Source: Gracilibacillus suaedae (lineage in GTDB: Bacteria > Bacillota > Bacilli > Bacillales > Amphibacillaceae). Taken from it: 64,000 nt of DNA. Position 1 is the stretch's first letter. Each line of letters begins with the position of its first letter. The notes under the pieces are model-generated. The model had not been told where the DNA came from. It searched no databases and saw only the letters and a program-made list of their open reading frames with translations. Shown piece by piece: positions 1-12,708 of the stretch. The translations under genes and the position numbers were made by a program. The stretch is from the NCBI RefSeq assembly GCF_017599345.1, contig NZ_JAGFVL010000044.1:1-64000 (forward strand), read 5' to 3'.

Positions 1-550
1 TGGTGTGCCGGGCATGCATCTAAACTCTAGGGTTCAAGTCCCGAACTGGGAAGGCAGTAGTACCAGTTAGCCAAGGACAAGGGTGTCTAGGGCGACCTAG
101 AATCTGAAGGAAGTCGGAGGCAAATTCCCGCCTTGAGGAACACGAACTTCATAGAAGGCTATTTATACTTGGATGAGACTGCCAAACACATCAAAGTCCA
201 TACTGCCGAAGGGTATAGGTAGTAAATGAAGCAAGGATATGGGGAGGAAGTGTAGATGCTTACCCCGGGAGGTCTGATAGCAAAGCGGTACACTTACCGT
301 AACCGGATGTGTGAACATTCACTGAACTATCAGAAGTCAGCAGAAGCCATAGTACCTGTTTCTTCTAGAGGAACAGGGAAGGGCGGAATCAGGAAAGGAA
401 CATGATCACTTGGGATACGTATGGTTTGATGAAGCAGAAACACAAGTTCCTTCCTCATGGAGGAAACGGTGAATCCCGTGGGGGACATGAGAAGGGTGGA
501 GAACACATACCACATAAAGAGAACGATCATGTACGTAGGAGAGAGAACGA

Positions 551-1810
551 ATGTTAAAACAAATACTGTCACGAGAGAATCTACTACAAGCTATATGGCG
601 TGTAGAAAAGAATAAAGGAAGCCACGGAATCGACCAAATGCCCGTACAAAACCTACGAGTGCATTTGAAAGAGAACTGGACAATCCTCAAGCAACAATTG
701 GAAACAGGAACCTATCAACCTCAACCGGTCCGTCGAGTCGAAATCCCGAAACCAGACGGTGGAAAGAGGAAGCTAGGGATTCCAACCGTGACAGATCGCT
801 TTCTACAACAAGCGATCGCACAAGTGTTGACCAAAGTATATGACCCGCAGTTTTCGGACCATAGTTATGGATTTCGTCCCCAAAGGCGAGGTCATGACGC
901 GGTGAGGAAAGCAAGAGGGTATATACAAGAAGGCTGTCGTTGGGTAGTAGATATGGATCTAGAGAAATTCTTTGATAAAGTACATCATGATCGTTTAATG
1001 CGCACCCTGAGCAAACGGATTAACGATCCAAGAGTGCTGACATTAATCCGTCGCTATCTACAAGCAGGAGTCATGGAGCAAGGACTTGTTCAGTCGAACA
1101 CAGAAGGAACACCACAAGGTGGCCCGTTAAGTCCTTTACTCTCTAATATTGTCTTAGATGAATGGGACAAAGAATTGGAGCGCAGAGGACTGCACTTCGT
1201 CCGTTATGCGGATGATTGTCAAATCTACGTTCGTTCCAAAAGAGCAGGACAGAGAGTCAGACAAAACATGACGGAATTCCTGGAAGGAAAACTAAAGCTG
1301 AAAGTGAATCAACAAAAGAGTGCGATTGATCGTCCATGGAGACGAAAATTTCTAGGATTCTCCTTCACCAGTCACAAGAAGAGACCAAAGGTTCGCATAC
1401 CAAAAGAGAGTATTAAGAGGCTCAAAGATCGAATCCGTTCCTTAACATCAAGGAAAGAAAACATCAGTATGGAGACCAGAATCGAACGATTAAATCGGTA
1501 CTTAATCGGTTGGATAGGATATTACCAATTGACCGAGGCACCAAGTGTTCTGAAACAGATAGATAGTTGGATCCAACGTAGACTCCGCATGATTCGATGG
1601 AAAGAATGGAAGTTGGTCAAGACAAGGTATCGAGAATTACAAAGGTTCGGTGTGAAGAAGGAGAAAGCGTGGGAATGGGCCAACACAAGGAAAGCCTATT
1701 GGCGGATTGCGAACAGCCCCATTTTACACAGAACCCTCGGCAACCGATATTGGGGAAGCCAAGGACTAGAAAGTTTGTTTATTCGTTATCAATTTTCACG
1801 TATGACTTGA
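551..1810 (+). CDS. ltrA: group II intron-encoded reverse transcriptase/maturase
   Basis: Intron-encoded protein of 419 residues that helps the intron RNA splice and copies it into DNA at new sites. The reverse transcriptase palm is clear: VDMDLEKFFDKVHHDRL (RT3), GTPQGGPLSPLLSN (RT4) and the catalytic YADD in FVRYADDCQIYV (RT5). The region after about residue 290 fits the maturase X domain. The protein ends soon after X (YQFSRMT) with no Cys-rich HNH endonuclease domain, so it belongs to an endonuclease-lacking lineage, which often targets replication forks or single-stranded DNA. The ATG at 551 follows a purine-rich GGAGAGAG. The ORF is intact, so the intron may still be mobile. Confidence 0.95.
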   Translation: MLKQILSRENLLQAIWRVEKNKGSHGIDQMPVQNLRVHLKENWTILKQQLETGTYQPQPVRRVEIPKPDGGKRKLGIPTVTDRFLQQAIAQVLTKVYDPQFSDHSYGFRPQRRGHDAVRKARGYIQEGCRWVVDMDLEKFFDKVHHDRLMRTLSKRINDPRVLTLIRRYLQAGVMEQGLVQSNTEGTPQGGPLSPLLSNIVLDEWDKELERRGLHFVRYADDCQIYVRSKRAGQRVRQNMTEFLEGKLKLKVNQQKSAIDRPWRRKFLGFSFTSHKKRPKVRIPKESIKRLKDRIRSLTSRKENISMETRIERLNRYLIGWIGYYQLTEAPSVLKQIDSWIQRRLRMIRWKEWKLVKTRYRELQRFGVKKEKAWEWANTRKAYWRIANSPILHRTLGNRYWGSQGLESLFIRYQFSRMT

Positions 1811-1815
1811 ATGAA

Positions 1816-1887
1816 ATCGCCAAATACGGAACCGTATGTTTGGTGATGTGAGAGGGTCGGAGGTTAGTCACCTCCCCCTATCTCGAT
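1816..1887 (+). ncRNA. group II intron domains V and VI
   Basis: Domain V is the hairpin 1816-1847. Its arms ATCGCCAAA and TTTGGTGAT pair, a 2-nt TG bulge follows, then TACG/CGTA closes a GAAC tetraloop. The CGC triad lies at the base. Domain VI (about 1850-1885) pairs GAGAGGG with CCCTATCTC and leaves one bulged A seven bases before the 3' end, the expected branch point. This is the catalytic core and it looks intact. Confidence 0.85.
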
Positions 1888-2164
1888 TGGAAACTGATTC
1901 GAAAGTAATGGAAAATAAAAGGATGATAATTAAATAGGAATATATATCTATTTTTCCAAAAAATACATATATTCCCTGGATTATTCTGCTACTTTTTATT
2001 TATAATGATTTATTAGATGAATAGTTTATTATGTGTTAATAGTGCGTAAAACTTCCACTTCAAAGTTCAAGTGAATCGAAGGAGTAAAGCGTGGCTAATC
2101 CCCTAATGATCAGTCAGCCACTGATCATAGTCTTACTCTATCATATGTTACGGAGGTGTACAGA

Positions 2165-2590
2165 TTGTCAGATTCTGATTTTTTAAGTAATGCATTTTAT
2201 ATTATTTCTAATCGTTCAGCGGATGTAGAACAAAAGATAGAAAGGTTAAAAGAAGCTAAACGTGACATAGAAGCTGAACAGGATCAAGCATTCATCGAAA
2301 TTAAACAAATTGAAAAACCTTCTTTAGATCTTTCATGGGAGGGTACAGAAGCCAATAAGTTTGACGAGGATCGCCGTGAAGCTTATCAAGTGATGAAAAC
2401 GAAGATTAGTAATTATGATCACTACATCAACCGGATAGATTGGGAAATAAGTCAACTAAACCTTCAACAAAATACACTAGATATTGCCAGTTCGATTGCT
2501 TACCAGGCGGATCGATTATTGGATCAAGGTGAAGAAGCTGTGGAAGCATTGGGAAGAAAAATTAACGAATTAAAAGGATGGTTGTTCTAA
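2165..2590 (+). CDS. DUF5082 (YwqH-like) small protein of an LXG operon
   Basis: A 141-residue, coiled-coil-rich protein (roughly residues 18-60 and 80-115), first gene of the toxin operon. Size, position and composition match the DUF5082/YwqH proteins that precede LXG toxins in Bacillus (ywqH-ywqI-ywqJ order). Such small alpha-helical partners are thought to bind the LXG head and assist type VII secretion; that role is family knowledge. TTG at 2165 is chosen because CGGAGG at 2151-2156 sits eight bases upstream; the in-frame GTG at 2156 overlaps the ribosome binding site. The stop overlaps the next start by one base. Confidence 0.75.
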   Translation: MSDSDFLSNAFYIISNRSADVEQKIERLKEAKRDIEAEQDQAFIEIKQIEKPSLDLSWEGTEANKFDEDRREAYQVMKTKISNYDHYINRIDWEISQLNLQQNTLDIASSIAYQADRLLDQGEEAVEALGRKINELKGWLF

Positions 2591-2883
2591 TGAACATAAG
2601 ATTAAGTAGTACTGCTGGTGGTGGAACGGAAATCAAGCTCCATTTTCATTCTGTTATGGCGCAACTTGAAAATGCGAGAAAATGCTTATCCCAATTAGAA
2701 TTACCAAAGCCTACTGACACTTATGGTAAAAATGAACTAAAATTCACGAATGAATGGTTGGAGCGGGAAGAAATGATTCATGAATTTTTATTACAATATA
2801 TTGAAACGGTAGAAAAAAACCTAGCAGACACAAGAGAAAGTGTGAAAAAACTAAAAGAACAAGATGAAGCAATTGGAAGGTAG
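2590..2883 (+). CDS. DUF5344 (YwqI-like) small protein of an LXG operon
   Basis: A 97-residue helical protein with the pattern of DUF5344/YwqI, the second small partner encoded before LXG toxins. It is predicted to act with the upstream DUF5082 protein as a helical complex with the toxin's N-terminal LXG domain for export through the type VII (Ess/Yuk) apparatus. ATG 2590 overlaps the preceding stop codon, implying translational coupling; an in-frame ATG at 2578 lies inside the upstream gene and has a poorly placed ribosome binding site. No type VII core gene is in the window, so the secretion machine must be elsewhere if it exists. Confidence 0.72.
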   Translation: MNIRLSSTAGGGTEIKLHFHSVMAQLENARKCLSQLELPKPTDTYGKNELKFTNEWLEREEMIHEFLLQYIETVEKNLADTRESVKKLKEQDEAIGR

Positions 2884-2907
2884 AAAGATGGAAAGGGAGA
2901 GGAAGCG

Positions 2908-4848
2908 ATGAGTTCAACTGAAACGTTGGAAACTAAATCGCTAGTCGAGACAGTAGAAGCTAGGGCACAAGAATATAAGGGTTTAAGTGAACAACTAGAA
3001 ACATTAAGAACTGCTTTTCAGCAAATTGTTGATTTAAATGATTTTACAGGGAAGAGTGCTAATGCAATTAAAGGATTTTATCGTGCGCAAATCGATGTCA
3101 TTGAAGCTTGGCTTGATTTTATTGATATGCAAATAGCTTTTTTTCAAGGAATAGAAGGAATGGCAGAGGATTTCGAATTAGGTGGGAAAACATTGGTGGA
3201 AGTCCCATTTTTGGAAAGAGAACTTGCCAATAGTACTTCAAAGGCATTCAATCTGGTCGATGCCCAGCAATCCAATTTGCAATCGATCTTTTCACGCATC
3301 AATGACCTCGTTTCATTAGACGTTTTTTCCAAGAGTGACTTTGAAGAACGGATGGAAGATGCTGAGGACAAACGTAAACAAACCAAACAGAAAGTAAGGG
3401 AATTTGATCAGCTCTTATTGGAGCATTATCATCAATCATCTCTCCATGAACAAGTGATTGTCGGTTTAATACAAGAAATGCTTCATGCTTCATCACAGGG
3501 TGGAGAAATTTCCCCCGTTCATTTTAATGAAATCATCTATCAGCAAAGTGAAGTCCATCAAGCAAGGCAAGATGCACAGGAGCTTACCTCATCCTATATG
3601 CAGTACCAGGAGGAACTACAGGAAAATCGCGAATTACAAGCTAAAATAGAGGAAATGGAAAATCGCCCATGGTACGAAAAAGCGTGGGATACAGTCTGTA
3701 CGTTTACAGGTGAAATAACCGGTTATTACGATGCCAAGCGTGCATCGACAGGAGTAGATCCGGTTACTGGAGAAAAATTAACGACTGCCGAACGTGTGAC
3801 GGCAGGATCATTGGCAGCAGCCGGATTTATCCCTGTAGTAGGTTGGGCAGGAAGAGCACTGAAAGGTGGAAAAACAGCTTACACGATGTCGAAAGGTGTA
3901 AAAGCCACGGATCATGTATTGGATGCCTATCAAAATGCGAAGGCATTTGATATACTAAAAAAGACAGAGTATGGTATATATGGACTGGCATCCTATAATG
4001 GATTCAGCGAATATATTACCGGCAAAGATATGTTCGGCAACGAATTAAGTGAAGAAAAACGAAACCAAAGCTTAACCCAAAGCCTATTTATGTTAGGTGC
4101 CGGTGGAGCAAGTGTAGCCGTAGATCGCATCCAGGCTAAAAACAGCCTCTCCACGATCTTCCCAACACCAAAACCACCCGCAACAGTACCTAAAACTCCA
4201 AAACCATGGTCGGTAAATTACGCGATGAAATGGTTGAAGGAACAAATACCTGAAGTTCGGATCGTACAGGATTCGATGGGTGGTTCTTATCCGGTGCTTA
4301 TGAAGAGGAGTGGTGGGGGCGAGAATGTAACTGGGTTAAGGAAATATGGTAATAGTTCGGTTAATAATTCTAAACAGGTGAATTATGGAGAACAATTCAC
4401 AAAAATAGGTGGTAAAAAAACTTTAAAACCTAATATCGAGTATACAACCAAAGAAGGATATCACTATAAGACTGATAGTGATGGTAGAATTTCCAACGTA
4501 GAAGCAAAGCTAGAACTAGGTAAAGCAGATCGTAATCAATATGCGCAAAGAACTGTCGGTGGAAAAGATAGATTATCAAACGATGATGGTGGTCACTTAA
4601 TTGCTAGCATTTTCAAGGGATCGGGTGATATCGACAATCTGGTTCCGATGAATGCAAACCTAAATAGAAGTGAATATAAGACTTTAGAGAATACTTGGAA
4701 GAAGGCTTTGGAAGAGGGGAAAGAAGTTAGGGTTAAATTAAAACCTATATATTTGGGCAATTCGATTAGACCAAGTGAATTTAAAATCAATTATACAATA
4801 GATGGGAGAAAGTATTCAGATAGACTAACAAATTATTTAGGAGGTTAG
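2908..4848 (+). CDS. LXG polymorphic toxin with DNA/RNA non-specific endonuclease-type tip
   Basis: A 646-residue antibacterial toxin. Residues 1 to about 235 form the helical LXG domain that targets type VII secretion. About 250-300 carries a pre-toxin (PT-TG-like) segment with DPVTGEKLTTAERVTAG and GFIPVVGWAGR. A proline-rich linker follows (about 415-440, TPKPPATVPKTPKPW). The C-terminal ~150 residues resemble the Endonuclea_NS_2 nucleases seen in YeeF-type toxins: DGGHLIASIF, then DIDNLVPMNANLN and a conserved KTLENTWKKALEEGK. The usual catalytic DRGH reads DDGGH here. It is preceded by AGGAAGC and followed four bases later by a YezG-type immunity gene. The linker and tip recur as orphan copies downstream. 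Confidence 0.88.
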   Translation: MSSTETLETKSLVETVEARAQEYKGLSEQLETLRTAFQQIVDLNDFTGKSANAIKGFYRAQIDVIEAWLDFIDMQIAFFQGIEGMAEDFELGGKTLVEVPFLERELANSTSKAFNLVDAQQSNLQSIFSRINDLVSLDVFSKSDFEERMEDAEDKRKQTKQKVREFDQLLLEHYHQSSLHEQVIVGLIQEMLHASSQGGEISPVHFNEIIYQQSEVHQARQDAQELTSSYMQYQEELQENRELQAKIEEMENRPWYEKAWDTVCTFTGEITGYYDAKRASTGVDPVTGEKLTTAERVTAGSLAAAGFIPVVGWAGRALKGGKTAYTMSKGVKATDHVLDAYQNAKAFDILKKTEYGIYGLASYNGFSEYITGKDMFGNELSEEKRNQSLTQSLFMLGAGGASVAVDRIQAKNSLSTIFPTPKPPATVPKTPKPWSVNYAMKWLKEQIPEVRIVQDSMGGSYPVLMKRSGGGENVTGLRKYGNSSVNNSKQVNYGEQFTKIGGKKTLKPNIEYTTKEGYHYKTDSDGRISNVEAKLELGKADRNQYAQRTVGGKDRLSNDDGGHLIASIFKGSGDIDNLVPMNANLNRSEYKTLENTWKKALEEGKEVRVKLKPIYLGNSIRPSEFKINYTIDGRKYSDRLTNYLGG

Positions 4849-4852
4849 ACAG

Positions 4853-5263
4853 ATGGAAACTAAAAAGATGGAACAAACATACCAACAAATTGCTAATACT
4901 TTAGTTAATATAGTGCCAGAAGAATGGGAAAGAATCTTATTATATGCTGAATACAGAGAAGGATATAGAAAAATATTTTTTTATTATTATCCCCAAACAG
5001 GTATAAAACCAGTATATAGCCTTGATATAATCGATTTTTTTAATATTGAAGAAGAAGAATATGATCAATTGGAAGATGAACTATATGAGTGTTTTACAAT
5101 GTTATGGGAGGAATTCAAGGAGCAAGGCCAAGAACAGTGGACGAATCTAACTTTCATTTTAGACAACACAGGTAAAATGAAAATTGATTATGGTTATGAG
5201 GATATTTCTGAGATTAGTCCAGTAGAGAAACAAGATAGATGGGAAGCTAAATACTTGAAGTAA
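4853..5263 (+). CDS. YezG/DUF600-family immunity protein
   Basis: A 136-residue acidic protein matching the YezG (DUF600) antitoxin family, the cognate immunity proteins of YeeF-type LXG nucleases. Family-like stretches include YQQIANTLVNIVPEEWE, YPQTGIKPVYSLDI and QEQWTNLTFILDNTGK. It should bind the nuclease tip of the toxin immediately upstream and protect the producer and its kin. ATG 4853 starts four bases after the toxin stop; the AGGAGG that serves it lies in the toxin's last codons, so the pair is translationally coupled. Function is inferred from family and position. Confidence 0.85.
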   Translation: METKKMEQTYQQIANTLVNIVPEEWERILLYAEYREGYRKIFFYYYPQTGIKPVYSLDIIDFFNIEEEEYDQLEDELYECFTMLWEEFKEQGQEQWTNLTFILDNTGKMKIDYGYEDISEISPVEKQDRWEAKYLK

Positions 5264-5403
5264 GTTCATTTAATCTTTGATTTACTTTGTAAATGAGATC
5301 TGATGCTTTAAATTCTAAAGGGTAGTTAAACAAACCAAAAGCAAAAGTATTAGCAGTCAAAATCTCGGTTTTTGTTATTATAGTTGAATTAGGAGGTTTT
5401 ATA

Positions 5404-5853
5404 TTGGCAAAAGAATTTGAAGATTATTTGTCTGAACTACAAACTGACATGGTAGCAATTAGCCTAGAGTATGTAGAAGATAGAGCTGATGATATTTTTA
5501 TTTATTGTTCATATGAACCAGAAGCTTATTATTTTAATGTTTTTTTTAGACTTCAAGGGAAGCTTGTTTTGAAACATCAGCTAAATGATGTACCTGATGA
5601 TTTTACTTATGACACTTCAACTGAGAGACAACTAGCTTTACAACGTATTGGTGTTCAAAATTTAGAAGAAATTCATAAAAAATGCAAAGAATATGGAAGA
5701 GATATGCCAAGCGAAATAAAATTACATTATAATGTAAAACAAAACTCATTAAAAGCAAAGTATAATTATGATATAGTTTATTCAAATGATGATGAACTAT
5801 TACCTAAAGATATTTTCATTAGATGGTTAGAAGAAGTAAAAAATAACTTATAA
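5404..5853 (+). CDS. putative second immunity protein
   Basis: A 149-residue acidic protein of unknown family, without signal peptide or membrane segment. Several features suggest immunity: it lies directly after a toxin/YezG pair, it is followed by a terminator and a headless toxin tip, and its last 35 residues (VYSNDDELLPKD, RWLEEVKNNL) recur in a decayed copy at 6778-6875, also next to a YezG-type gene. TTG 5404 is chosen because AGGAGG at 5391-5396 is seven bases upstream. It may protect against a toxin tip no longer in the genome or held by rivals. No catalytic motif is seen. Confidence 0.6.
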   Translation: MAKEFEDYLSELQTDMVAISLEYVEDRADDIFIYCSYEPEAYYFNVFFRLQGKLVLKHQLNDVPDDFTYDTSTERQLALQRIGVQNLEEIHKKCKEYGRDMPSEIKLHYNVKQNSLKAKYNYDIVYSNDDELLPKDIFIRWLEEVKNNL

Positions 5854-5876
5854 ATTAGACCTTGATTGGGTATCGA

Positions 5877-5921
5877 CCCCCGAAAGTTAGAGTGAAAGAT
5901 CTAACTTTCGGGGGTGTTTTT
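5877..5921 (+). terminator. strong intrinsic terminator inside the toxin cassette array
   Basis: A perfect 14-bp stem pairs 5877-5890 with 5901-5914 around a 10-nt loop, followed by TGTTTTT. It ends the main toxin operon and directly abuts the orphan toxin tip, which begins within its T tract. Confidence 0.92.
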
Positions 5922-6169
5922 ATGGTCCTCCTGATATTGATAATCTTGTACCACAAAACAGTCAAATTAACAGGAGGGGTGGAGTTTGGTATGATATGGA
6001 GACAGAGTGGGCGAATGCATTAAAAGAGGTACCGCCTAAGAAAGTTTCTGTAAACATTGAACCCATGTATTTAAATAATTCTATGCGTCCGAATTCTTTT
6101 ATGGTTGAGTATGAAATTGAAGGTCAATTTCCAGTGTTTCGTGAGATTGCAAATAAATCAGGAGGTTGA
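5918..6169 (+). pseudogene. orphan LXG toxin C-terminal tip (headless)
   Basis: An open frame with no start codon, fused to the terminator tail, encodes about 83 residues beginning FYGPPDIDNLVPQNSQINR. It matches the second half of the nuclease tip of the full toxin (DIDNLVPMNANLN, then the TLENTWKKALEEGK region) and ends KSGG, next to the YezG-type gene at 6175. The LXG head, linker and the GH half of the catalytic motif are missing, so it is not a working toxin. It is either a decayed tandem copy or a silent donor module with its own immunity gene. Confidence 0.8.
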
Positions 6170-6174
6170 TGTAA

Positions 6175-6663
6175 ATGAGTATTGAAATAGAACTAAACAA
6201 ATTATATAATGAAATTGCTCAACAGATTAATGATATGATCCCAACTGAATGGAATAATTTCTGTTTTAATGGAGAAGTAAAGGATGAAGAAGGAGGAGTA
6301 TTTTTCTTTTTTAGGCCTAAAGATAAAGAGCAATACGTTTATTCCCATTATATTCCTAGACTATATAATATAGATAAGAGGTCATACTATAAAGAACTGC
6401 ATACATTATTTGAATTAACCGTTCAACTTCAAAGACTTTTCATTGAAAATGATCAAGAGCCTTGGTTTTCAGTAACATTATTAGTTAATGAAGATGGTAA
6501 ATTAACTGTACATTTTGATTATATTAATTGGCATGATAGTGAATTTGGTCCGGCTGATAGAATTGAATATTTTGAATATAAATATATAAGTAATGATAAA
6601 GGTGACCTAGATTTAATTAAGAGAATGGAAGAATTTGAAAAAAACAATACTACTGTTGAATAA
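6175..6663 (+). CDS. YezG/DUF600-family immunity protein (second copy)
   Basis: A 162-residue acidic protein of the YezG/DUF600 family, clearly related to but divergent from the copy at 4853. It has the same layout: an IAQQINDMIPTEWN N-terminus, FFRPKDKEQYVYSHYIP, then QEPWFSVTLLVNEDGKL. A charged tail after residue 145 is extra. AGGAGG lies in the last codons of the orphan tip just upstream, as in the intact toxin/immunity pair, so tip and immunity gene moved as a unit. It probably gives immunity to the toxin variant whose tip is left at 5918-6169. Confidence 0.8.
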   Translation: MSIEIELNKLYNEIAQQINDMIPTEWNNFCFNGEVKDEEGGVFFFFRPKDKEQYVYSHYIPRLYNIDKRSYYKELHTLFELTVQLQRLFIENDQEPWFSVTLLVNEDGKLTVHFDYINWHDSEFGPADRIEYFEYKYISNDKGDLDLIKRMEEFEKNNTTVE

Positions 6664-6777
6664 AGTACTTGATGGCTTTCGCAACAGTTCGATTTGTTTA
6701 ACAGTTTGATATTATGTACTTATACAAAAAATGATAAAAAGGTTTACCATAATCATCAACTAAAATGAGGCTACATA

Positions 6778-6875
6778 GAATTTGATGGTAAACTTACATT
6801 TGTTTATTCAAATAATGATGAATCGGTAACTGGTTCGAGGAAGTAAAAGATAATAATTTATTAAATAAACCTTGA
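6778..6875 (+). pseudogene. decayed copy of the 5404-5853 immunity-like gene
   Basis: The frame from 6778 reads FDGKLTFVYSNNDES, then after a shift of frame at about 6829 WFEEVKDNNLLNKP and stop. This parallels YDIVYSNDDE...RWLEEVKNNL at the end of the 5404-5853 product. The rest of the gene is gone. Confidence 0.65.
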
Positions 6876-6907
6876 TTAGCTAAATGCCCTTCAAGGTTTA
6901 TTTTTTT
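6864..6907 (+). terminator. intrinsic terminator after decayed immunity gene
   Basis: AATAAACCTTGA (6864-6875) pairs with TCAAGGTTTATT (6891-6902) and is followed by a run of T. The flanking sequence resembles the region after 5853, consistent with duplication of the whole module. Confidence 0.8.
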
Positions 6908-6942
6908 GAACATCTGACGTTATAGTATGATTAGTCATCCAT

Positions 6943-7716
6943 GGAGAATACAGAGTATATATTACTGACAAAGATATATTTGGAAAGAAGTTAAGTAAAG
7001 AAAAACAAACCCAAAGCCTATTCATGTTAGGTGCCGGTGGAGCACGTGTAGCCGTAGATCGCATGCAGGCTAAAAACAGCCTCTCCACGATCTTCCCAAC
7101 ACCAAAGCCACCCGCAACAGTACCGAAAACACCAAAACCATGGTCGGTAAATTACGCGATGAAATGGTTGAAGGAACAAATACCTGAAGTTCGGATCGTA
7201 CAGGATTCGATGGGTGGTACCCATATAATGTTTGCGAAAAGAAGTGGTGGAGGAAGCGGTAGAAGGGATACTGTTAATCATTCTAATAGTAAAGGTTTTG
7301 ATGATAAAAAAAGAAATAGAGTTCATATGAATGAAGATGGAACGTTAAAGCCTAACGTTAAATATCAAACAGGTGAATATAATTACGATTATAAAACAGA
7401 TGAATTAGGAAGGTTAACTGAATTCAATGCGGACGACTTAAAGTTAACAAAGCGTGATAATAGATTACCTCACAAAACTGATACACCTGGTAAGGAACCA
7501 GGAGATCATGCTGGCCATCTAGCAGGAGATCGATTTGGAGGTCCTCCAGAATTAGATAATCTAGTTTCACAATCTAGTAGTGTTAACTTAAGTAAATATA
7601 AAAAGTTAGAAAATAAATGGGCTAAAGCAATTGAAGAAGGTAAGCACGTTTCTATGAATGTGAAAATTAATTATGAAAATAATAGTTTAAGGTTGCAGGT
7701 GGAGCATGTTGTTTAG
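6943..7716 (+). pseudogene. orphan LXG linker plus nuclease tip cassette
   Basis: Homology to the full toxin begins at about 6943 (YITDKDIFGKKLSKEK versus its YITGKDMFGNELSEEK) and runs through the linker into a different nuclease tip. 7024-7218 matches 4090-4284 with only five base differences by my reading. The tip has GDHAGHLAGDRFGGPPELDNL, then KLENKWAKAIEEGK, the same fold class as the full toxin but with a diverged sequence. It stops early (NNSLRLQVEHVV), about 30 residues short, so the tip is truncated. There is no LXG head and no ribosome binding site. An internal ATG at 7024 leaves a 230-residue ORF, but translation is doubtful. No immunity gene follows on the plus strand. Confidence 0.8.
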
Positions 7717-7811
7717 CTTTGTTAATGTCTAAACAGTTTCTTCATGATCCTTCCAAACACGAATTCACCCGCAACAATTGAAACCCATGGTTAAAAGGTA
7801 TGAGTAAAGTT

Positions 7812-8261
7812 CTATATTTGAATTTGTGCATGAGGACATCGTTTTTTCAGCTCAGTAATGAATTCTTCTTTATCGTTGGGTGAAATTTTTACACTGCCTA
7901 ACGCGGCTGTTGTATAAAAAATCTCTATTGCATCTCTTGACGACAATATTCTATAGCCTGTAAAAATATCTCTTGTAGGTGAAACTTTTGTAATATTTGT
8001 GTATCGAATCTTGCTTTTAAAGGGACCACCTTTTACTAATAAGTAATCTTGATAAAAAACATACTTGACTGAAAAGGTACACCATAAGATAAAGCCTGTC
8101 ACGATAAAGAATGTTGAAGTCAGTATAAGAATTACAGGTAACTCAGTTGCACCTTCGATGAAAAGTGGAAAAAATGAAGCCAAGGCAATAATAAATATCG
8201 TTATCCATATAAAATGAACAAAGAATGCATCGACCCTTGAACGAAAAAACATGATAATCAC
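7812..8261 (-). CDS. small membrane protein with bacterial PH-like domain
   Basis: A 149-residue protein with two N-terminal membrane helices (about 14-34 and 42-64) and a cytoplasmic beta-rich domain (YQDYLLVKGGPFKSKIRYTNITKVSPTRD) typical of bPH_6/DUF1200 proteins. Function unknown. It converges on the orphan toxin cassette. ATG 8261 follows AGAAGGTG; a TATAAT-like box lies on the minus strand at 8277-8282. Proteins of this type occur near polymorphic toxin loci and could be immunity factors for membrane-active toxins, but nothing here shows that. Confidence 0.7.
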   Translation of the reverse strand: MIIMFFRSRVDAFFVHFIWITIFIIALASFFPLFIEGATELPVILILTSTFFIVTGFILWCTFSVKYVFYQDYLLVKGGPFKSKIRYTNITKVSPTRDIFTGYRILSSRDAIEIFYTTAALGSVKISPNDKEEFITELKKRCPHAQIQI

Positions 8262-8502
8262 ACCTTCTTTCTATTCATTATACGAGTTTCTTATCATACC
8301 GGTTTCAATCTTTTTTATTGTAGAAGATATTTCTTCCATAACATAGATGTTCATGCCAGATTCACCACGCCAAACTCTCCATTGTTCAAACTCTCACTTC
8401 ATATACAGAAAATATACTTCGAAAACAATGCCGTATTATATGTATAATTCCCTCCAAAAAGGAAAGGATGAAAAATAAAAATGGAAAAGTGAGGGAATGT
8501 TA

Positions 8503-8691
8503 GTGATTTGTCCGAATTGTCGCAGCAAGAATATCGGAATTATCGGTCCTGAGCAATATTATTGCTGGGATTGCTTCATTGAATTATCTGTCCAAAATGA
8601 TATGCTGCATTTGCATGAAGTAGAAATGGATGGATCGTTAAGCTCATTAGATGATTTATTTTCTGATGAGGAAAGACGTGTAGAAAGGTAA
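8503..8691 (+). CDS. small zinc-ribbon protein
   Basis: A 62-residue protein with one zinc ribbon, CPNCRSK at the N-terminus and CWDC about 20 residues later, and an acidic tail. GTG 8503 is preferred because GAGGG at 8491-8495 is seven bases upstream; ATG 8497 is in frame but too close. The stop overlaps the next start by one base, so it is coupled to the permease gene. The zinc ribbon suggests nucleic acid or protein binding; the role is unknown. Confidence 0.72.
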   Translation: MICPNCRSKNIGIIGPEQYYCWDCFIELSVQNDMLHLHEVEMDGSLSSLDDLFSDEERRVER

Positions 8692-9764
8692 TGAAGTCCA
8701 ATCAAGCCAAAATTCGTCTCGTTCTGCAACTGATTATTCTTTGCTTAGCAGTTCTGTTTCTCTATTTAATGTACATCCTGTTTCCTTTCTATAAGCACGT
8801 GCTTATTGTCATTTTACAGGTGTTGGCACCATTTTTAATCGCAGGATTAATCGCATATCTATTACATCCAGTTGTCGAAAAACTTCATCATTTTCGTATT
8901 CCAAGGCCATTGGCTATTATTTTCATATATATCCTTTTTTTCGCACTTACTGGGTATGGTATATATATATCCTTTCCAATGTGGATGAAGCAAATACAGG
9001 AAATGCAACAGAATATTCCACAATATGTAGATGCTTATCGCACATTTATCTATGATATTTATGATCAAACATCATTTTTGCCAGAGGGATTTCATGATCA
9101 TTTAGATCAACTCTTTGAAAATATTGAAACAACTTTAGGGGAACAGTTTACCAACCTATTGAAAAATATCCCTTTGTTGTTTGATATTTTTGTTATGATA
9201 GCAGTGATCCCCATTTTAGCTTTTTACTTTCTAAAGGATTATCAGAAATTACAGAGAAGCATACTAAGAATGATCCCGCAAAAATATCAAGCTTTCACGA
9301 AAAAATTAGCTCATGAAATGGAAGAAAGTCTTGGTCAGTATATTCGCGGTCAAATATTAGTCTGTTTTCTTGTAGGCTTAGTGAGTTACTTTCTGTTAAG
9401 ATGGGTTGGGATGAATTATGCAGTTGTGTTGGCAACGATTATCGGTTTTACAAATTTTATTCCTTATTTTGGACCGATCATAGGAGCTATCCCTGCTGTG
9501 TTAATTGCCTTTACCATGTCAACAAAAATGGTGTTATATGTACTATTGGTCGTGCTAGCAGTCCAAATAACAGAAGGTAATCTACTTTCACCATTTATCG
9601 TAGGAAAAAGTATTCACATACACCCTGTGTATTTAATTTTGGCATTATTTATTGCAGCCAAGACTGCAGGAGTGGTTGGGATGATTTTTGCAGTTCCATT
9701 CCTAGCTGTTGCTAGAGTAGCTGTGCCTTTAATGATTAGACAAGTGAAAGCAATTGACAGATAG
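8691..9764 (+). CDS. yrrI: AI-2E family transporter (YrrI-like)
   Basis: A 357-residue polytopic membrane protein of the AI-2E/PerM family, with about eight predicted helices: paired helices near residues 10-65, a central soluble stretch, then a hydrophobic C-terminal half ending in AAKTAGVVGMIFAVPFLAVA. Family members export varied substrates; some act as sodium/proton antiporters. Position directly upstream of the alanine T-box and alaS is as for B. subtilis yrrI, which supports orthology. The substrate cannot be told from sequence. Confidence 0.88.
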   Translation: MKSNQAKIRLVLQLIILCLAVLFLYLMYILFPFYKHVLIVILQVLAPFLIAGLIAYLLHPVVEKLHHFRIPRPLAIIFIYILFFALTGYGIYISFPMWMKQIQEMQQNIPQYVDAYRTFIYDIYDQTSFLPEGFHDHLDQLFENIETTLGEQFTNLLKNIPLLFDIFVMIAVIPILAFYFLKDYQKLQRSILRMIPQKYQAFTKKLAHEMEESLGQYIRGQILVCFLVGLVSYFLLRWVGMNYAVVLATIIGFTNFIPYFGPIIGAIPAVLIAFTMSTKMVLYVLLVVLAVQITEGNLLSPFIVGKSIHIHPVYLILALFIAAKTAGVVGMIFAVPFLAVARVAVPLMIRQVKAIDR

Positions 9765-9804
9765 CTTAAAGTTATCTATAATATGCTAGCGAAGTTAAAT
9801 AAAT

Positions 9805-10038
9805 CAAAAACGATGAAAAACCTGAGTACTGGATTATCGTTTCAAAGAGAGGAATTTCCGTGGCTGAAAGAAATTCTAAATGCTCTGATTCAGGAAGCTA
9901 GTTTGAAGTGCAGCGAAATACTGCCGGTTCCATCACCGTTACAGATGTTAAGGTGACAGTCACGTTGGCTGTAATTAGGGTGGTACCGCGGAATATAACT
10001 CTCGTCCCTGCTGAATAAGGCAGAGATGGGAGTTTTTT
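9805..10038 (+). promoter_or_regulatory. T-box riboswitch, alanine-specific
   Basis: Controls alaS by sensing uncharged tRNA-Ala. The T-box sequence AGGGTGGTACCGCG is at 9977-9990. In stem I, CTGGAT (9829-9834) pairs with ATTCAG (9888-9893). Below it an AGTA/GAA loop-E motif carries GCT at 9897-9899 in the specifier position, an alanine codon. A terminator hairpin with a T run ends at 10038. Pairing was done by eye. Confidence 0.93.
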
Positions 10039-10074
10039 ATTGAAAAATAAGCAAATAAATGGAGGCGATTAATC

Positions 10075-12708
10075 ATGAAGCATTTAACATCTGCTCAAGT
10101 GCGACAAATGTTTTTAGACTTTTTTAAAGAAAAAGATCATGGTATTGAACCTAGTGCATCATTAGTACCAAAAGATGATCCGACATTATTGTGGATCAAT
10201 AGTGGTGTGGCTACATTAAAAAAATATTTTGATGGTCGTGTAGTACCAGAGAATCCCCGTATAACCAACGCACAAAAATCAATTCGTACTAATGACATCT
10301 CCAATGTCGGTTATACTGCACGACACCATACATTCTTTGAAATGTTAGGAAATTTCTCGATTGGTGACTATTTCAAGGAAGAAGCAATTGACTTCGCCTG
10401 GGAATTTCTAACTGGTGACAAATGGATAGGATTTGATCCAGAGAAATTATCGGTTACCGTACACCCAGAAGATGAAGAGGCTTATGAGCTTTGGCGAGAT
10501 AAAATTGGCTTACCAGAGGAACGTATTATTCGTATAGAAGAAAATTTCTGGGATATTGGGGAAGGACCAAGTGGACCAAATACCGAAATTTTCTATGATC
10601 GTGGCGAAGCTTATGGTAATGATCCAAGTGACCCAGAACTATACCCGGGCGGTGAAAATGAACGTTATTTAGAGATTTGGAACCTGGTGTTCTCACAGTT
10701 TAATCATAATCCGGATGACACGTATACACCATTACCGAAGAAAAATATTGATACCGGGATGGGACTCGAGCGTCTAGTTAGTGTAATCCAAGATACGAAA
10801 ACAAATTTTGAAACAGACTTATTTTTACCTATTATTAAAGAAACAGAAAAGTTCGCTAATACTACTTATCAAGCAAAAGAAGAAACAGATGTGGCATTTA
10901 AAGTGATTGCTGATCATATTCGTACTGTAACGTTTGCGGTGAGTGATGGCGCATTACCTTCAAATGAAGGTCGTGGCTATGTATTGCGTCGTCTCCTGCG
11001 TCGTGCTGTACGCTATGCTAAACAAATTGGAATCGAGAAGCCGTTTATGTATCAGCTAGTTCCGACGGTTGGTATGATTATGGAAGCTTTCTATCCAGAA
11101 GTGAAGAATAAAACAGACTTTATTCAAAATGTGATAAAAACAGAAGAAGAACGATTCCATGAAACATTACAAGAAGGCTTACAAATCTTAAACACGATCA
11201 TTGAACAAGAGAAGACAAAAGGAAATAAAGTATTCCCTGGTGAGGAAGTCTTCCGCCTTTATGACACGTATGGATTTCCAAAAGAGTTAACCGAAGAGTA
11301 TGCAGGTGAAGCAGGATTTACGCTTGATGAAGCAGGGTTTGAAAAAGAAATGGCTAAGCAACGTGACAGAGCACGTAATGCTCGTCAAAAAGTCGATTCC
11401 ATGCAAATTCAGGATGGCGTATTAAATGAAATCAACGCGGAAAGCACTTTTGTAGGTTATGAATATTTACAAGCGGAAACAACGGTACTGGAAATAGTCG
11501 CTGATAAAGATCGAGTAGAATCTGTTACAGCAGGATGTGAAGCATACGTTATCTTAGCTGAAACACCTTTTTATGCTGAAAGTGGTGGTCAGATTGCTGA
11601 TAAAGGTACGATCTCCTTTGACGGTGGACATGCAGAAGTACAAGATGTACAGAAAGCTCCTAACGGACAAAACCTTCATCGTATTTTGATTCAGGAAGGT
11701 GCGCTAACAAAAGGACAGGCTGTAAAAGCACAGGTTGACAAAACCTCCCGTCAGTACATTATTAAAAATCACACGGCAACCCACCTCTTGCATCAAGCAT
11801 TAAAGGATGTATTAGGGGAACACGTTAACCAAGCTGGTTCATTAGTAGCGAGTGAGCGTCTCCGTTTTGACTTCTCACATTTTGGTGCGGTAACAGAGCA
11901 AGAAATTACCAATATTGAACAGAAAGTCAACGAAAAAATCTGGGCTTCTATTCCGGTTTCGATTAGTAATAAAGGGATTCAGAAAGCGAAAGAAATGGGT
12001 GCTATGGCATTATTCGGTGAAAAATACGGCGATATTGTACGTGTAGTCCAAATTGGTGATTATAGTATGGAACTTTGTGGTGGTTGTCACGTTGAGAACT
12101 CTGCTGAAATTGGTTTATTTAAGATCGTTTCGGAATCAGGAATCGGCGCAGGTACACGAAGAATCGAAGCAGTCACTGCTAAAAGTGCTTATCAATACGT
12201 GAATGGTAAACATCAATTGTTACAAACAGCTGCCAATCAACTGAAAACAAAAGAAGACCAAGTACCTGAGCGTATCGAGCATCTATTTAATGACATGAAA
12301 GAACAAAATCGTCAAATCGAATCATTACGAGCCAAGCTTTCCCAATTAGAGGCTTCATCGATCTTAGATGATGTTCAAGAAGTAAATGGAGTAAACGTGT
12401 TAGCGAAAAAGGTAGATGTTTCCGACATGAATCAATTACGTCAAATGGTAGATGAAATGAAACAAAAATTAGAATCAGGTATTATTTTGCTTGCTGCGGT
12501 CAATAATGACAAGGTACAGTTAGCATCAGGAGTTACCAAAGATTTGGTAACGAAAGGGTATCATGCAGGGAATTTAATTAAAGAGACTGCCAAGATTTGT
12601 GGTGGTGGCGGTGGTGGCCGTCCAGATATGGCACAAGCTGGTGGTAAAGATGCGACTAAATTATCAGAAGCTCTTGCTTATGTAGAAAAATATGCGCAAG
12701 AGGTATAA
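10075..12708 (+). CDS. alaS: alanyl-tRNA synthetase
   Basis: Charges tRNA-Ala with alanine in the cytoplasm. The 877-residue product has full family length. The N-terminal class II catalytic core contains [16 protein letters not shown] (motif 2 region) and [10 protein letters not shown] (motif 3). The editing domain shows [11 protein letters not shown] and the zinc-binding CGGCHVE, and the C-Ala domain ends with [18 protein letters not shown] 10075 follows GGAGGCG. The upstream T-box explains its regulation, and the downstream ireB-ruvX-DUF1292 order is as in B. subtilis. Confidence 0.98.

Follow-up and report, generated by a model that had tools for sequence, protein, structure and literature searches.

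Polymorphic toxins are generally composed of a constant 5′ body and of toxin-immunity cassettes, and the strings of extra immunity genes found with them have been explained, in the sections of the general account drawn on here, by repeated replacement of the 3′ end (PMC3482391). In Enterococcus faecalis OG1RF, the type VII secretion system (T7SS) locus has orphan toxin/immunity modules behind LXG toxins, and full-length LXG versions of these orphans occur in other strains and in Listeria, according to the passages of that report considered here (PMC7790226). We describe a comparable locus of Gracilibacillus suaedae, contained in a stretch of 64,000 nucleotides (nt) that we call the window (NZ_JAGFVL010000044.1, positions 1 to 64,000; the contig begins at window position 1). 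It appears to be a polymorphic-toxin locus of the type VIIb LXG kind that has undergone repeated exchange at its 3′ end and keeps the leftovers of earlier exchanges downstream, a reading to which we give a probability of roughly 0.8.

As in OG1RF, the headless genes behind the LXG toxin have a 5′ stretch in common with the full toxin but diverge from it at the 3′ end (PMC7790226). Orphan modules behind LXG toxins are thus already published and the layout is not new, so that the novelty implied in an earlier, sequence-only reading of the window falls away. What differs is that the shared stretch in OG1RF is given as more than 75% identical in nucleotides, with no recombination footprint described in the passages considered, whereas here a tip exchange is seen between sister species. 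We see no difference in principle from the general model of polymorphic toxins in the sections cited above (PMC3482391); the window is a worked case of it. The orphan Rhs tips of Salmonella Typhimurium are also similar, being described, in the part of the study used here, as silent fragments without a translation start that have homology to the main gene and their own immunity gene (PMC3967940). Unlike them, the toxin here is an LXG protein, recombination was followed experimentally in Salmonella and is read from sequence comparison here, and neither spare tip of the window is whole. Finally, the EsaD/EssD nuclease of Staphylococcus aureus is accompanied by recombining strings of EsaG genes (PMC10941976). 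Our locus shares with it an EssD-like tip (tip A), immunity genes of the YezG/EsaG type, and an additional, putative immunity gene, here named ImmX, that is predicted to have the EsaG fold (structures 8guo and 8gup). It differs in that the passages considered on the EsaG strings contain no headless tips and in that ImmX has no detectable sequence kinship to EsaG/YezG.

All features of the locus are on the forward strand. Two small partner genes, one YwqH-like (2156-2590; PF16888, E value 2e-12) and one of the DUF5344 family (2578-2883; PF17279, E value 1.4e-19), were added by Pfam to the earlier description as part of the toxin locus. The complete LXG toxin with a YezG-type immunity gene that had been claimed was borne out by Pfam: the toxin gene (2908-4848) encodes 646 residues in one frame, with LXG at 6-202 (122 bits), PT-TG at 257-331, a linker, and Endonuclea_NS_2 at 508-633 (142 bits), and the immunity gene follows at 4853-5263 (PF04634, E value 4.6e-36). 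Tip A, residues 488-642, matches the solved EssD nuclease of S. aureus (8guo) with an E value of 4.6e-36. An N-terminal LXG domain and a C-terminal toxin domain, with small partners upstream and an immunity gene downstream, are what is expected of an LXG polymorphic toxin. It would be exported through the T7SS of this genome and would harm other bacteria by its nuclease; the T7SS gene yukC was found in all four genomes searched and sits elsewhere than the toxin locus in the window genome.

Evidence for our reading comes from the sister species Gracilibacillus lacisalsi (DSM 19029; locus L040), compared, like the other species of the genus, through a single genome. Its head is 97.7% identical to that of the window over 2426 nt, and its downstream flank is 95.3% identical over 5445 nt. 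At the end of the linker, however, at window position 4316, identity ceases, and a different tip and an Imm6 gene come next. This head-attached tip of 186 amino acids (aa) is unrelated to tip A and has no Pfam match up to an E value of 0.001; it contains HAE and CxxC motifs, which we take to be deaminase-like. Exchange of the tip at this locus between species is therefore well supported by the comparison. The sequence-only reading had stated that an array which only decayed, never with a swapped head in related strains, would be mere degeneration after duplication; a swapped head is present at the same locus in G. lacisalsi. A simple history in which the toxin gene was duplicated and then decayed would account for the NS_2 domain and the linker being common to the pieces. 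We rejected it, and consider it very improbable, on the mismatch between linkers that are 92% identical and tips that are just ~44% identical, and on the unrelated tip of the sister species; each tip type, moreover, has nearer relatives in other genera.

Behind the Imm6 gene, G. lacisalsi carries an ImmX scrap, a headless linker with a whole A′ nuclease (252 aa, uninterrupted), its YezG-like gene, a decayed ImmX tail, and a complete ImmX. It thus has as an intact headless cassette what is a truncated piece in the window. At L040 6833-6886, moreover, 18 nt from the start of a linker are joined directly to the final 36 nt of the immunity gene of tip A. A headless tip-A cassette may have left this trace, although the 18-nt match is short; in the window, tip A is head-attached.

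In the window, the first spare tip, A′ (5918-6169), has no linker and keeps just the C-terminal portion of the NS_2 domain. Its listed open reading frame (ORF), 5996-6169, covers just profile positions 90-131 of 132, and the first part is missing, including the DDGGH stretch, which we take to be catalytic in this family. The 89 nt from 5924 onward match the unbroken cassette of G. lacisalsi (from L040 5830) without a difference. The YezG-like immunity gene of this tip is an open frame at 6175-6663 (PF04634, E value 3e-40), and a gene 72% identical to it sits behind the whole A′ tip in G. lacisalsi. The headless tip with its own YezG gene that had been proposed is hence present, though the tip is a fragment. 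A remnant of an ImmX tail follows at 6802-6877, with 21 nt at 95% identity (6802-6822) and 47 nt at 81% (6831-6877); the decayed immunity copy had been correctly recognized. The last cassette, called linker plus tip, does consist of these two elements, but its tip is truncated at the C terminus. Its headless linker copy (6948-7253) is 86% identical, with gaps, to 4002-4319 and 92% identical over 246 nt, far above chance, and a genome-wide search gave two copies in all. A headless tip thus shares a stretch with the full toxin, as expected of an orphan array. Tip B (7255-7716), a nuclease of the DHAGH type, covers NS_2 profile positions 1-120 of 132, has no immunity gene behind it, and stops 7 residues past the last alignable position, 146. 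Among 30 loci including the window, ~21 or more residues follow that position in 28 of the other 29, the exception, L143, being degenerate. Behind it, at 7731-7776, a third and decayed piece of linker retains 74% identity over 46 nt.

Neither spare tip has a recognizable ribosome site, the best AGGAGG matches being 2/6 before 7024 and 4/6 at the unusual spacing of 13 before 5996, while all three immunity genes have 6/6 matches; the measure is rough, because the LXG gene itself has only a 4/6 match at spacing 8. A complete tip with a paired immunity gene is found in G. lacisalsi and not in the window. Such a state of the spare parts is what would be left by a graveyard in which horizontally acquired tip-immunity pairs push old ones downstream, where the toxin pieces decay, the immunity genes are kept as still protective, and the spare tips are never reused. 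This explanation, which differs from the reading of repeated exchange solely in denying reuse of the spare tips, has in our view close to an even chance. In the window, the three immunity genes are intact and neither spare tip is, in accord with it, and displacement of this kind has been published for effectors of the type VI secretion system, in the portion of that work considered here (PMC5361080). It fits less well with the intact headless cassette and immunity gene of G. lacisalsi, with the putative headless tip-A traces there where the window has tip A on the head, and with a footprint that the linkers have left within each genome.

That footprint was found by comparing 198 nt of four linker copies, head and headless, from the window species and G. 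lacisalsi; the head copy in the window is 4119-4316, delimited by its homology to the headless cassette and by the end of identity to G. lacisalsi. Five sites, at 4137-4251, group the copies by genome, and 10 sites, at 4285-4308, group them by position, with no mixing of the two kinds, an order expected in 1 of 3003 orderings. The copies thus group by genome across the first 166 nt and by position across the last 32 nt. Within the first 166 nt, the two copies of the window differ at 4 places and the heads of the two species at 10; the head at 2908-4118, unlike the linker, differs by <2% between the species. The pattern is what gene conversion between the head and the headless copy would leave. 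Together with the 92-98% identity of linkers on head and headless copy, it also speaks for a reusable store, in which the linker would let spare cassettes recombine back onto the head, as for orphan Rhs tips, the precedent given in the part of the Salmonella study used here (PMC3967940). Headless cassettes lacking a ribosome site would be silent unless recombined, which we count in its favor. Yet neither spare tip in the window is complete, and no immunity gene lies directly behind tip B; such a store is possible, though we would sooner bet against it. The swappable warheads proposed in the sequence-only reading stand insofar as tips have been exchanged at the locus, as the sister species and the footprint indicate; a usable store in the window genome is not supported, both spare tips being damaged and devoid of a recognizable ribosome site.

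Linkers were also compared more widely. From a sample of 70 loci, 4 without an LXG match and 5 that were too short were set aside, leaving 61, all but two of them from other genera. At least one headless linker copy was present in the downstream stretch of 24 of the 61, G. lacisalsi and G. kekensis among them. The downstream stretches of the 61 loci contained 51 linker pieces, several of which are part of second LXG genes rather than headless copies. The nearest head was that of the same genome for 22 pieces, a count that includes three (L104, L113, and L115) starting at base 1 of the downstream stretch, where the head gene continues past a frame break, and one (L100) at the locus edge. A general homogenization of linkers within genomes was rejected on this count. 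The other 29 were nearest the head of another genome, which points to movement between genomes too and is in keeping with displacement of old cassettes by acquired ones.

Several results weigh against our reading. The damage to both spare tips is at odds with a ready store of warheads. The footprint documents conversion in the linker and is no proof of a whole tip moving that way, and the split of 22 to 29 pieces shows no general preference for the genome's own head. In addition, the toxin was matched in 6 of 17 Gracilibacillus genomes, that of the window included.

With these points taken into account, we still favor repeated exchange at the 3′ end. In this reading, the head, comprising the partners, LXG, PT-TG, and the linker, is retained and the changing unit is the tip plus its immunity gene. 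The linker just 5′ of the tip would serve as the shared homology where head and cassettes recombine, and exchange would occur within the array as well as with incoming DNA. The retained immunity genes may guard against relatives that still use the corresponding tips.

In the third species, G. kekensis (locus L041), a tip-B-type nuclease that shares 56% identity with tip B is attached to an LXG head. A spare tip fused to the LXG head had been suggested as something to search for; a relative of the last tip is found in this position, whereas the A′ tip of G. lacisalsi is whole but headless. Tips found loose in one place thus occur in full-length form elsewhere, tip B through its relative in G. 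kekensis and tip A, to judge by frame length, in frames of >400 aa. The order in G. kekensis is the tip-B-type tip, a relative of ImmX, an Imm6 stretch in frame with a linker and a WHH/colicin-DNase tip, an SMI1/KNR4 gene, and a head without the first LXG part that bears an Ntox15 tip. Its three linkers, with ~94% identity across 579 to 1179 nt, precede three different tips, and the linker-bearing proteins diverge soon after an RSGGG stretch. The gene at L041 8185-9579, in which the Imm6 stretch runs continuously in frame into the linker and the WHH/colicin-DNase tip, is apparently a scar of exchange. Elsewhere in the genus, the locus L045 (genome G001) has at 4134-11170 three successive linker-like stretches that lead into three different C-terminal sequences, and no LXG match of this head type lies alongside.

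That leaves the second immunity-like gene of the earlier description, ImmX (5404-5853). It is immunity-like by its predicted structure, which has the EsaG fold in fold comparison. No Pfam family above the cut-off and no NCBIfam match was obtained, no sequence match to the YezG-like family (PF04634) or TIGR01741 up to an E value of 0.1, and none to the Protein Data Bank up to an E value of 1; PHROGs and PADLOC were not queried. Comparison with the YezG profile, a thin one of 4 sequences, gave a probability of 0.1%. A relationship to YezG by sequence was accordingly rejected, and the likeness is one of fold alone. By gene neighborhood, 11 of the 15 complete copies of ImmX elsewhere lie directly behind tip-B-type nucleases, and in G. 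kekensis a relative 39% identical to ImmX is behind the head-attached tip of this type. Most likely, ImmX is an immunity gene and the partner of tip B. In another genus of the family, L026 has at 282-1947 the order tip A′, its YezG gene, ImmX, close to that of the Gracilibacillus arrays; this trio may have travelled together.

A bolder proposal joins the two subjects. The array would be an active exchange site with the linker as a shared recombination arm, head-attached and headless tips trading places within the genome and with relatives, and ImmX would be an unlisted immunity family, with the EsaG fold and without the EsaG sequence, specific for DHAGH-type tips. We regard this combination as tentative, with somewhat less than an even chance of holding in full.

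Tip A itself was matched 57 times, in 43 of the 397 genomes of the order. By length of frame, a rough sign of a head at best, 34 are in frames of >400 aa, 19 in frames of <330 aa, and 4 are broken. Aeribacillus composti has a headless frame of 165 residues that is 83% identical to it. In a Pelosinus assembly (L110 2-7462), a 2487-residue open frame with haemagglutinin repeats has at its end a nuclease sharing 77% identity with tip A, an indication that tips pass from one delivery system to another.

The sequence-only reading had placed a terminator at the end of each module, which we rejected, a convincing one being found for two of the five modules. One, an intrinsic terminator with a 16-pair stem at 5876-5915 (-29.4 kcal/mol, z -5.7), nearly abuts the truncated tip A′. 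The other, a terminator-like hairpin followed by a T run at 6863-6903 (-16.7 kcal/mol), is behind the decayed ImmX tail; it gave a z of -5.9 when 6858-6912 was folded and of -1.1 with the narrower stretch 6872-6912, which clips the hairpin. Behind 5263, 6663, and 7716, no hairpin was better than shuffles (z 0.41, 0.02, and 2.27). A consensus scan of 1500-8800 gave 2 terminator-like sites, compared to 4.2 expected in shuffles.

Directly upstream of the toxin operon is a group II intron (86-1810), parts of which were the sole matches in an Rfam scan of window positions 1-9000 (D1-D4 parts at 86-257 and 300-384). A reverse-transcriptase-like ORF of 419 residues (551-1810) goes with them. G. lacisalsi has no counterpart of the intron within the blastn match, which starts at window position 1891.

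This locus offers a clean natural example: its head is 98% identical in two sister species that differ in the tip it carries, and the point at which an LXG toxin is exchanged can be followed closely. Literature searches found no paper for Gracilibacillus with type VII secretion and, for LXG with gene conversion, no LXG toxin in titles or abstract openings. We also propose which toxin goes with an immunity gene family absent from Pfam and NCBIfam.

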